From contig NZ_REGA01000016.1 of assembly GCF_003841505.1 (NCBI RefSeq), forward strand, positions 1 through 64,000: a DNA stretch of 64,000 bases, in the 5' to 3' direction. A program made the position numbers and the translations under genes. The DNA is from Natrarchaeobius chitinivorans. GTDB lineage: Archaea > Halobacteriota > Halobacteria > Halobacteriales > Natrialbaceae. How positions within the stretch are numbered: position 1 is the first letter of the stretch; every line of letters starts with the position of its first letter. Below are positions 2,871 to 59,235 of this stretch, one piece after another. Below the pieces are notes generated by a model that did not search any database, was not told the DNA's origin, and worked only from the letters and a program-made list of their open reading frames with translations.

Positions 2871-3773
2871 GTGGAGTACAACCGTGTCCGTCTCAGCAAA
2901 GGTCGGAACATGAAACCGTCACTGTACGCCGCCGACTACATCCTTTGTGAGTACCAGACACGACCTGACGTTGACCTCTCCGAGGTCAAAAACGTCCAGC
3001 AGGTTCGAGCGGTCTGGACTGATACCGAGTGGGAACTCCACTTCGTCTGCAACGTCGAGATCGAAGTTGCTGAAGCCGCCGGTGAGAAAACCGTCGACAT
3101 CGATCTTGGTATTACCACCTTTGCCGCGCTCGCCTACGAGGACGGCTACAGCGAATTGTACCCGTTGAACTGCCTGAAGCAGGACGACTACTACTTCAGC
3201 AAGCGAATCGCTCGCTGTGACGACTCGGGCTCCGAGCAAGCCACGCGGTTGAACCAGAAGAAGTCGGCTCGCCGAACCCACTACTTCCATACGCTCTCCA
3301 AACACATCGTTGAACGATGTGTCGAGGAAGATGTTGGAACAATTGTGGTGGGGGACCTCTCCGGTATCCGTGAGAACGAGCAGAACAGCGAGTCGAAGGA
3401 CTGGGGCACGCACGGTAACCTCGATCTGCACTCGTGGGCCTTCGACCGCTTCATCGACCTCCTCGAATACAAAGCCAAGGTGGAAGGCATCTCGGTCGAG
3501 CAGGTGTCTGAGCGGAATACCGCGAAGTCGTGTTCGTGCTGTGGTCGCAACCGTGACGGGAATCGTGTTGAACGCGGACTGTACGTCTGCGATGAGTGCG
3601 GAACGGTAGCGAACGCGGATGTGAACGGTGCTGAAAATATTCGGCAAAACGTATCTCCGAGTTCACCGAGTCCGTCGGTGAATAGGAGTAACGGCTGGTT
3701 GGCACAGCCTTCGACGTACCTGTTTGACAAGGAAACTGGTGCGTTCGCACCTCGAGAACAGGTCACGTCGTAG
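2871..3773 (+). pseudogene. 5'-truncated tnpB (IS200/IS605-family RNA-guided nuclease)
   Basis: About 300 codons of an IS1341-type TnpB remain. The RuvC-like motifs are visible: DIDLGITTFA (first Asp), VVGDLSGIREN (second motif, where the usual Glu of an E-D-L motif is Gly), and ADVNGAENI (third Asp). A zinc ribbon, CSCCG then CDECG, lies between motifs II and III. Full-length relatives are about 400-430 aa, so roughly the first 110-130 residues are missing, and an in-frame TGA lies immediately upstream (2862-2864). The coding remnant runs straight into a recognisable right end. It is unlikely to make active TnpB. Confidence 0.85.
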
Positions 3774-3775
3774 AC

Positions 3776-3826
3776 CGTAATATCCCAACGTGGGAATCCC
3801 ACGGCTTCAGCCGTGTGGAGGATGTC
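3776..3826 (+). mobile_element. Right end of IS200/IS605-type element (3' part of putative reRNA/omegaRNA)
   Basis: Just after the tnpB stop are two small hairpins: TCCCA-ACG-TGGGA (3783-3795) and CACGGC-TTCA-GCCGTG (3800-3815), followed by TGGAGGATG. The stem-loop with a following GGAGGA motif is typical of the 3' end of haloarchaeal tnpB elements, where it would form the scaffold end of the guide RNA. The sequence after about 3826 would be the guide/flank. No matching left end is visible because the 5' half of the element is lost. Confidence 0.7.
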
Positions 3827-9862: not shown

Positions 9863-10068
9863 CGCTGCTGGGATATATCAGATTTGGATAATGGATGTGT
9901 GTGGATAACCTCATTAATGGATGTGAAAATTTATAGTAGAAAAAGAAGAACGGTTGAATGACGGGAGTTCCGTGTGAACCAAACTACGGTCACGTTTGGT
10001 TTGAAAACGCGGATCGGTGATAGAGACACCGAGTCCGCGGTGGCTCCCGTATCCGCGGTACGGAAGCC

Positions 10069-10383
10069 ATGTTCGACGACACTTCACGGGACCTTGAAGG
10101 TCCCGAACGACGAGATGAATCGCTCGAGAATCGCGCACAACCCGTCACCGATGGCGGCCGGGACATGGCACCTGACCGGTTCGTACTCACCCTCGAGTAC
10201 ACGACGATGGACGGTCGTCGCCAGCGCGTCACGTTCGTCCGGGGCGTGGACGACGCCCGGCGGATCACCCACGAGCGCCGCGATGGTGAATGGCGAAAAA
10301 CCGGCCGTCAACCGATTTCGGATCTCGCCGTCCAGTTCGATGGCCGCTCCGGCCGACTCGGTAGTCACTGTGTGGGACCGTGA
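10069..10383 (+). CDS. Hypothetical protein
   Basis: A 104-aa frame with GC-rich third positions across its length. The second half (from the Met at codon 33, position 10165) alternates hydrophobic strands and charged turns (RFVLTLEYTTMDG, then WRKTGRQPISDLAVQF), resembling small beta-rich haloarchaeal proteins. No family is recognised. The minus strand has a competing 94-codon frame over the same bases, so the strand call is tentative. Confidence 0.45.
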   Translation: MFDDTSRDLEGPERRDESLENRAQPVTDGGRDMAPDRFVLTLEYTTMDGRRQRVTFVRGVDDARRITHERRDGEWRKTGRQPISDLAVQFDGRSGRLGSHCVGP

Positions 10384-24181: not shown

Positions 24182-24427
24182 TCACTCCGACCCGGACGGC
24201 GAGTACGCGCGAGCCTCGGCCGTAAACGCCAGCAGCCCGATGCCGGCGATGCAGTCGGAACAGCACGTCTCGGTGACGGCTTCGTACCGCCCGGAGAGTT
24301 CGAAACACGGATCGCTCGAGAGGCGGATCACCCGGTCGTCCCGAACGCGTTTCCCACAGCGATCGCAGTCGGTTTCGGACGAACCGTCGACGCCCGTCCC
24401 GTCGGCGACGTCTCGTCCGTGACTCAT
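24182..24427 (-). CDS. Small zinc-finger protein (paralogue of the gene at 58990)
   Basis: An 81-aa protein with a treble-clef-like Cys pattern: CDRCGKRV, a middle CFELSGRYEAVTE, and CCSDCIAGIG. The paralogue at 58990-59235 is also 81 aa and matches at CDRCG, RYEAVT and C-x-DC-x-AGIG. Function unknown; zinc binding is inferred. The ATG at 24427 is preceded on the minus strand by a structured leader (24540-24690) that is also duplicated. An in-frame upstream extension exists but is out of frame with the equivalent region of the paralogue. Confidence 0.75.
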   Translation of the reverse strand: MSHGRDVADGTGVDGSSETDCDRCGKRVRDDRVIRLSSDPCFELSGRYEAVTETCCSDCIAGIGLLAFTAEARAYSPSGSE

Positions 24428-24539
24428 CGGGGACGCCTCCCCGCTCGTCGCCTCGAGCGTCGTCGGTCGGTGTGGCTCCCGGCGCGGTGGCCGCCGTCCG
24501 GAGCCGCAGGTCGATCGATGCCGATACGCCGTCGTCGTG

Positions 24540-24690
24540 CGAGAGCTTTTTGTCTCGGTGGCAGTAACGAAAGCATGGCAGCCAAGTGTCCGCTTGGAAG
24601 CCACCCGTCTCGGGTGTGCTCGCACCCGGGGCGTTTCGTACGCACGCCCCCGCGTCCGCATTCTGGAGCGCGTGGCTTCCATCACGATGA
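24540..24690 (-). ncRNA. Putative structured leader RNA, copy 1
   Basis: Read on the minus strand, a TATA-like AATTATATTATT (24702-24714) is followed about 26 nt later by GATGGAAGCCAC. Conserved helices follow: P1 GGAAGCCAC/GTGGCTTCC (24672-24680 with 24596-24604), P2 ACGCCCC/GGGGCGT (24644-24650 with 24628-24634), P3 GGGTG/CACCC (24612-24627), P4 CCAAG/CTTGG (24582-24597) and a final CGAGAC-loop hairpin (24540-24557). Copy 2 at 58760-58913 keeps all helices, with compensatory changes in P1 (C-G to U-A) and P4 (G-C to A-U). Small indels shift the reading frame between copies, favouring RNA over peptide. Function unknown. Confidence 0.6.
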
Positions 24691-24700
24691 TTCAGACGAG

Positions 24701-24714
24701 AAATAATATAATTT
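24701..24714 (-). promoter_or_regulatory. TATA box before structured leader copy 1
   Basis: The minus strand reads AATTATATTATTTC here; the same AATTATATTATT occurs at 58735-58746 before copy 2. Both sit about 26 nt before the GATGGAAGC start of the conserved leader. Confidence 0.65.
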
Positions 24715-24842
24715 TTGGTGTGCAGTGAAGAAATCGGAGTGGCGGGCTCCGAGACGAAACCGGTGTGTTACCCGGACCTCGAGCGCGGAGCCACGGCTCG
24801 GACTCGAGTACGCGTGCGAAAACGAACGTTCAACCGCGTCAA

Positions 24843-56989: not shown

Positions 56990-57079
56990 ATGGCACGAGA
57001 TTCGTTCTCAACGCCGGACGACGGGGATAGAGGAAGTCGGGGCAACCCGGCTGGGCGTGAAATTCCGCGACGATACTGA
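56990..57079 (+). CDS. Possible upstream peptide overlapping the cimA start
   Basis: A 29-codon frame starting ATG 56990 (MARDSFSTPDDGDRGSRGNP) ends at TGA 57077-57079, inside the first codons of the downstream synthase but one base out of frame with it. GGCTTTAAG (56951-56959) is a likely TATA box, so this ATG would be the first in the transcript. It lacks runs of branched-chain codons expected of an attenuator. It may be a leader peptide, or the true synthase N-terminus separated by a frameshift. Confidence 0.35.
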   Translation: MARDSFSTPDDGDRGSRGNPAGREIPRRY

Positions 57080-58759: not shown

Positions 58760-58913
58760 GTCACGATGGAAGCTATTCGCTCCAGAAAGCGAACGCGGGG
58801 GCGTGCGTACGGAAACGCCCCGGGTGTAGCAGCACCCGAAGCGGATGGCTTCCAAACTATCGCGCGTTTGGCTGCCATGCTTTCGTTACTGCCACCGAGA
58901 CAAAAAGGTCTCG
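58760..58913 (+). ncRNA. Putative structured leader RNA, copy 2
   Basis: The same helices as copy 1: P1 GGAAGCTAT/ATGGCTTCC (58768-58776 with 58845-58853), P2 GGGGCGT/ACGCCCC (58798-58804 with 58815-58821), P3 GGGTG/CACCC (58822-58826 with 58833-58837), P4 CCAAA/TTTGG (58852-58856 with 58867-58871) and a final CGAGAC/GTCTCG hairpin (58896-58913). Between P4 and that hairpin about 25 nt (CTGCCATGCTTTCGTTACTG) is unchanged between copies. Relative indels between copies keep the helices but change the frame. It precedes the zinc-finger paralogue at 58990 by about 76 nt. Confidence 0.6.
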
Positions 58914-58989
58914 CACGACGATACGGTATCGCTCTCGATCACCGCTCGAGTCGACGGCTCGACCGACCACGAGCCGGGAGGCGACCTCG

Positions 58990-59235
58990 ATGAGTTCCAG
59001 ACGCGAGGCTGCCGACGCCACGAGGACCGACGATCCGTCCGAGTCGGTCTGCGATCGCTGTGGTGATCCGGTTCCCGAAGACCGGATACTCCGCCTCTCG
59101 GTCGAGCCCTGTCCCGAACTCGCCGGGCGGTACGAGGCCGTGACCGCAACCTACTGTCCCGACTGCGTCGCCGGCATCGGCCACCTCTCGTTCGCGGCCC
59201 GCCCCCGAGGGCACCCGCCGACGGATTCCGAGTGA
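58990..59235 (+). CDS. Small zinc-finger protein (paralogue of the gene at 24182)
   Basis: An 81-aa protein, the same length as its paralogue. Cys motifs: VCDRCGDPVPED, then EPCPELAGRYEAVTATYC and PDCVAGIGHLSF. Most differences lie in the N-terminal 18 residues and the last 15. The ATG overlaps (ATGA) the end of a 75-codon frame running through the structured leader, so upstream translation could couple to it. Function unknown. Confidence 0.75.
   Translation: MSSRREAADATRTDDPSESVCDRCGDPVPEDRILRLSVEPCPELAGRYEAVTATYCPDCVAGIGHLSFAARPRGHPPTDSE

Follow-up and report, generated by a model that had tools for sequence, protein, structure and literature searches.

The region upstream of an 81-aa zinc-finger gene in Natrarchaeobius chitinivorans resembles the region before a second gene of this kind, which raises the question of what such a leader does and how widely it is used. 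Both genes lie in the window, i.e. the whole 64,000-nucleotide stretch of DNA that was analysed. An earlier reading of the window (the sequence-only reading) had proposed a duplicated, structured leader RNA with four helices.

Results

Two matching leaders in the window

Both leaders were found and matched each other with about 86% identity in blastn (Table 1). The base changes described in the sequence-only reading were confirmed. The terminal C-G pair of P1 in copy 1 (GGAAGCCAC/GTGGCTTCC) is a U-A pair in copy 2 (GGAAGCTAT/ATGGCTTCC), and in the helix that had been called P4 and is named P5 here, a G-C pair is replaced by A-U (CCAAG..CTTGG in copy 1, CCAAAC..GTTTGG in copy 2). The frame upstream of GCC-ATG is shifted by indels between the copies, as had been noticed, and the TATA box AATTATATTAT is located at about -33 to -26 relative to the first P1 base, with the same box in 126 related copies. 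Since the box has this position in the 126 aligned copies, transcription is expected to start at or just before P1, and the 5' end of the copy 1 transcript is probably found there. In both copies, the final base of the pre-AUG strand is the A of the ATG. The short ORF with its ATGA overlap, the hairpin P6 within this ORF, the pseudoknot and the multicopy nature of the element were absent from the sequence-only reading. A long leader ORF from the ATG at 58766 was rejected, as its frame is not preserved among the copies.

Table 1 Positions of the leader features and of the adjoining genes in the window
Feature	Position	Strand	Evidence or remark
Structured element copy 1 (P1 to P6)	24534..24686	-	covariance-model match and alignment
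Copy 1 promoter region with TATA box AATTATATTAT	24688..24717	-	
Copy 1 P1 5' strand GGAAGCCAC	24672..24680	-	P1 covariation
Copy 1 P1 3' strand GTGGCTTCC = switch strand S, common to P1 and P5ext	24596..24604	-	
Copy 1 pre-AUG strand CTTGGCTGCCA	24576..24586	-	3' side of P5 and P5ext
Copy 1 hairpin P6 CGAGAC-AAAAAG-CTCTCG, within short ORF	24540..24557	-	
Copy 1 short upstream ORF, 50 codons, begins MLSLLPPRQKALARR	24424..24576	-	stop overlaps zinc-finger ATG (ATGA)
81-aa type-A zinc-finger gene behind copy 1	24182..24427	-	
Structured element copy 2	58762..58919	+	blastn and covariance-model match
Copy 2 P1 5' strand GGAAGCTAT	58768..58776	+	
Copy 2 P1 3' strand ATGGCTTCC = switch strand S	58845..58853	+	
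Copy 2 P2 (pseudoknot with P3)	about 58793-58796 with 58805-58808	+	
Copy 2 P3	58798..58821	+	58798-58803 paired with 58816-58821
Copy 2 P4 GGGTG..CACCC, directly adjoining P3	58822..58837	+	
Copy 2 pre-AUG strand GTTTGGCTGCCA	58866..58877	+	3' side of P5 and P5ext
Copy 2 hairpin P6 CGAGAC-AAAAAG-GTCTCG	58896..58913	+	
Copy 2 short upstream ORF, 38 codons	58877..58993	+	stop overlaps zinc-finger ATG (ATGA)
81-aa type-A zinc-finger gene behind copy 2	58990..59235	+	
Third, divergent member of the RNA class	9957..10111	+	covariance-model match
Third member 5' strand ACGGGAGTT	within 9957..10111	+	
Third member S strand GGCTCCCGTA	10042-10051	+	
Third member pre-AUG strand TACGGAAGCC	10059-10068	+	
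Third member P6 CGGGACC-TTGAA-GGTCCCG	10087-10105	+	
104-aa ORF (MFDDTSRDLEGPERRDES...) under third member	10069..10383	+	no family assignment

Copies in the genome, the family and the class

With the second leader as a query, blastn detected 15 places in its own genome, and within the same family 59 of 125 genomes had matches, mostly several per genome. A covariance model search of haloarchaeal genomes had been suggested in the sequence-only reading. Model R1, built from 39 copies, gave 17 strong copies in the own genome, and model R3, which includes divergent members, recognised 24 places there, the 17 strong and 7 divergent ones. With multiple copies per genome, the element is a family and not the product of one duplication. 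R3 matched 280 of 391 Halobacteria genomes at E<=1e-4, covering 75 of 86 genera. In a phylum-wide draw of 393 genomes, all 52 genomes that matched at E<=1e-5 belonged to the same order. The E-values are rough due to a short calibration, which leaves weak matches outside the family individually less certain; these were therefore judged by independent tests of P5ext and P6. Four weak matches failed: L192 was judged false, and L219, L223 and L231, which did not pass the pairing test, were judged false or unproven.

A P6 pattern scan of named records detected close copies in Natrialba, Natrinema, Natrarchaeobius, Halopiger, Halovivax, Natronoglomus, Natribaculum and Natronolimnohabitans. On plasmids, a few copies were seen, all on Natrialbaceae plasmids. 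A phage origin was rejected, as blastn against phage records gave no match to the element. At locus L094, CTGTCTCTTATACACA stands beside an N and a repeated stretch and resembles a transposase adapter left in the assembly.

Genes behind the leader

Two types of zinc-finger genes follow the leader. Type A proteins have about 80 residues with CxRCG...CPDCVAGIGML, and type B proteins have about 50-95 residues with CPxC...GP..H..PCGC; neither was matched by a Pfam or NCBIfam model above the cut-off. A profile search of the own genome detected 11 type-A and 5 type-B genes, each of which has the leader, and the only remaining strong copy (C4:69951) is without a zinc finger. In 53 of 54 cases the P6 loop AUAAAC went with type B, and AAAAAG/A went with type A in 27/27, a match of leader subtype and protein type that is attributable to common descent.

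The genes behind divergent members encode SWIM zinc fingers, other small Cys proteins, PadR-type regulators and tyrosine recombinases (integrases). These genes are often reached through a short ORF with ATGA or GTGA, and P6 begins 18-19 nt past the AUG in most divergent members. Among all downstream genes small zinc-binding proteins dominate, and integrases and PadR regulators also occur. Two divergent leaders (L215 and L226) are coupled by GTGA/ATGA to tyrosine-recombinase genes, which hints at a use by integrating elements. A subgroup with MIAYPLPRHKRLARQSVR (L091, L100, L111, L119, L121, L128 and L143) has a strong leader without a zinc-finger gene; the 300 nt downstream are alike among several of these copies and may represent an extended non-coding RNA. 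The small C(P)XCG proteins of Haloferax volcanii (PMC11241148, PMC10716476) resemble the proteins here in their small size, their haloarchaeal origin and their two C(P)XCG-like motifs, whereas a leader RNA is not part of their description in the abstracts of these papers.

Architecture of the RNA and covariation

The elements follow each other in the order TATA box, P1, pseudoknot P2/P3, P4, GARNC, S, hairpin P5, AUG and P6. P1 (GGAAGCC..GGCUUCC) has up to 9 pairs and is separated by a short stretch from P3 (GGGGCA..UGCCCC). The loop of P3 pairs back with the preceding bases to form P2, which is CGC/GCG in most copies and of other paired types in some, resulting in an H-type pseudoknot. P4 (GGGUG..CACCC) follows P3 with zero bases between them, and the conserved GARNC lies between P4 and strand S. 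P6 (CGAGAC..GUCUCG) is located within the AUG-started ORF, about 18-19 nt past the AUG.

For the covariation analysis, 126 copies were aligned and the pair statistics were taken from an alignment with 100 copies. Covariation was scored by a G-test and ranked with APC; the controls were slid and shuffled alignments. In the 100 copies, standard pairs were found in 94% of the pair cells, double changes occurred at 15 pairs compared to 8.8 +/- 1.4 in shuffles, and none of 500 shuffles reached the covariation score. When the partners were slid by one to three columns, the pairing fell to 49% or less. A structure-free ranking placed high the columns 161-174 of P6 (A-U to G-C), 103-129 and 102-130 of P5 and 46-62 of P3; the remaining high-ranked column pairs were markers of two subfamilies. 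P1, P3, P5 and P6 are backed by covariation, and the 5' leader contains a conserved structured domain with covariation, as is characteristic of a riboswitch. P4 is nearly invariant and therefore supported by complementarity only. The pseudoknot pairs, including the outermost one, were formed in about 75% of the cells. The variation in P1 was mostly one-sided (C-G to U-G), which is expected when S is held by two partners, though it is not decisive. The folding energies of both leaders in the window were beyond those of shuffled sequences (z -2.6 and -2.8), but the real evidence for the structure is the covariation.

Strand S has two partners

S (GGCUUCC) can pair either with the 5' end, forming P1, or with the bases just before the AUG, forming P5ext, an extension of P5. 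The sequence-only reading had proposed that a helix competes with the last two base pairs of P1. This competition is real but was stated too small, as the entire 3' strand of P1 can pair before the start codon. Mutually exclusive helices of this kind, the expression platform of riboswitches, are recognised here by sequence only. At columns 11/96/137, G, C and G are changed to A, U and A in L134, L138, L139 and L155, where a single substitution in S is accompanied by a fitting one in each partner and P1 and P5ext are both preserved. These four copies come from two genomes of genus g9 and are mutually related, and the three-way change therefore counts as few independent events.

In divergent members, S has various sequences (GGCUUCC, CUCCGUA, GGGUUC, GGCCUUCGUG, GGGUUUCU and GGGUCGUUU) and the pre-AUG strand follows. 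In 35 of 46 divergent loci, the fit of S to the pre-AUG strand exceeded that of shuffles (p<=0.05), and the combined test of the 46 loci gave a Fisher chi2 of 355 on 92 df. The model that found these loci, R3, contains P1 but only the top 3 pairs of P5. When the energies were computed with the pseudoknot not scored, the P1 and P5ext states differed by a mean of 1.2 +/- 3.6 kcal/mol and were within 5 kcal/mol of each other in 82 of 100 copies.

The short upstream ORF and its structured part

A small zinc-finger gene was reached by 106 of the 122 readable short ORFs. Among these 106, an exact 4-nt overlap of the ATGA type was found in 85, and 15 further ones were at -4 or -7. The ORFs range from 28 to more than 100 codons. 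Nearly all start with M, a hydrophobic stretch and P/G-R/Y..K..A-R, and the sequence beyond codon 15 is unconserved. At codons 8-13 the third positions are largely kept while the first and second vary, with invariant third positions at codons 7, 8, 11 and 12. The dN/dS ratio was about 1.5 at codons 8-15 and 1.06 across codons 2-15. In the peptide, the A-U to G-C change in P6 appears as an R to G exchange at codon 8 and an L to P exchange at codon 12, one from each side of the pair. Since such paired changes alter the peptide, the RNA is conserved and not the peptide. A conserved peptide with synonymous changes and no covariation, named in the sequence-only reading as a sign against an RNA, was not observed; changes in the structured codons were mostly non-synonymous and preserved the pairs. 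The short ORF is kept open as far as the gene, and what is preserved in its structured part is the RNA. The codon analysis gave no sign of the selection on peptide or codons that marks an attenuation leader peptide. A single read-through protein is encoded at L140, where the short ORF and a type-B zinc finger are joined in frame.

Comparison with known RNAs

Rfam 15 gave no match to the element at the gathering threshold or at E<=1 in the window or in near and divergent copies. ARAGORN and Rfam detected no tRNA or tmRNA at the element, and the sot models, tested for a TnpB-associated sot or omega RNA, did not match there; they matched elsewhere (3649-3818, and L049 1-163). The match at 3649-3818 (+) is to sot0042, a sense overlapping transcript RNA, with 151 bits. 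A leuA-Halobacteria RNA (RF03001) is found at 57016-57068 (+) at the start of a 523-aa leuA-like gene, which ends just upstream of copy 2. It is also a cis-regulatory RNA of Halobacteria, but its 53-nt model has no match to the present element. A description of the element was not found in the open literature, to which the search was confined.

Discussion

The sequence-only reading had proposed a cis-regulatory RNA that is undescribed and belongs with a family of small zinc-finger proteins. The one-to-one association in this genome, the covariation and the lack of an Rfam match support this. The tie to zinc fingers holds, but the proposal was too narrow, as the short ORF would be acted on first and other genes are found outside the family. 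The helices, the dual pairing, P6, the ATGA overlap and the gene association are read from the DNA itself. The dual pairing at the start codon and the overlap with the next gene argue for translational control, and we consider it likely that the leader is a cis-acting RNA switch that controls translation and is coupled to the zinc-finger gene by termination-reinitiation.

From the TATA box we infer a transcription start close to the 5' strand of P1. P1 would close a compact domain containing the H-type pseudoknot P2/P3 and P4, and the P1 and P5ext folds are mutually exclusive and close in computed energy. With P1 formed, the AUG of the short upstream ORF would be free and ribosomes would translate this ORF, terminate at its ATGA and reinitiate at the zinc-finger gene. 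With P5ext formed, the AUG would be locked at the foot of a long hairpin and the operon would be silent. The assignment of the ON state follows only from the position of the AUG. P6 probably assists in placing the ribosome or an RNA-binding factor. Of 14 gene pairs with 4-nt overlaps tested in Haloferax and E. coli, 13 were strictly coupled (PMC6728339), and the same overlap of stop and start may couple the ORFs in this organism. In contrast to those ATGA gene pairs (PMC6728339), the first ORF here is a variable leader ORF behind a conserved, putative RNA switch.

The element shares with pseudoknotted translational riboswitches (e.g. the preQ1 types) a compact pseudoknot domain, a strand common to two exclusive helices and a start region that would be masked in one fold. 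It differs from them in being archaeal, in masking an AUG without a Shine-Dalgarno sequence and in acting, as proposed, on a short ORF coupled to the gene; the genes behind it do not appear to have a common metabolic pathway.

The trigger of the switch is possibly a small ligand, an ion or a protein, with the zinc finger itself among the candidates. In the latter case, a particular form of the switch that differs in the trigger, the zinc-finger protein would bind the leader, stabilise one fold and limit its own synthesis. Autoregulation is consistent with the one-to-one association in the own genome, with the P6 loops that track the protein type (53/54 for type B, 27/27 for type A) and with the many small Cys-rich proteins downstream, also of divergent members. 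However, common descent explains the subtype correlation, divergent members precede integrases and PadR regulators instead, and the strong copy C4:69951 has no zinc finger; we regard autoregulation as somewhat unlikely. The main rival that needs no trigger is a constitutive, IRES-like enhancer, whose fold would recruit ribosomes to a leadered start codon without Shine-Dalgarno sequence while P6 pauses them on the AUG. This would fit the leadered mRNAs of Haloferax, which do not use Shine-Dalgarno sequences (PMC3986360), the 18-19 nt spacing of AUG and P6 in most divergent members and the P5ext strand directly adjoining the AUG. One strand with two conserved partners is expected of a switch, whereas it has no evident constitutive use, and we regard the enhancer as unlikely.

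An attenuation-type leader peptide, where the peptide or the codons of the short ORF are sensed, could account for the open ORF, its similar N-terminal pattern in nearly all copies and the ATGA overlap that keeps its frame. The dN/dS ratios, the invariant third positions, the joint R to G and L to P exchange that preserves a base pair, and the lack of peptide conservation beyond codon 15 make this very improbable. We give slightly less credence still to a small RNA that acts in trans, or to a dispersed mobile repeat whose place before these genes is incidental. Multiple copies and an own TATA box would fit this, as would the subgroup named above, L121 excepted, whose copies lack a zinc finger and are alike over a longer stretch downstream. 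Against this stand the fixed position at the start codon, the overlap with the downstream ORF and the complete gene association in this genome, and sequence-divergent copies keep the pairing to their own pre-AUG strand.

The translational switch may, as a tentative extension, be a native, order-wide riboswitch-like class of Halobacteriales, where about 24 copies in one genome would form a post-transcriptional regulon. One common signal would unmask AUGs without Shine-Dalgarno sequences and control small zinc-binding proteins, regulators and integrases. To our knowledge, only a small number of native regulatory RNAs have been described from archaea, and we know of no understood route by which haloarchaeal leadered mRNAs are initiated without a Shine-Dalgarno sequence. 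A structured class that is multicopy, order-wide and has an alternative fold at the start codon makes questions of archaeal RNA and of initiation testable in the existing haloarchaeal genetics. Many uncharacterised small zinc-finger proteins are linked into one probable regulon, and their genes have a conserved, overlooked upstream ORF in common. Taken together, the element looks like a widespread, undescribed RNA switch of protein synthesis.
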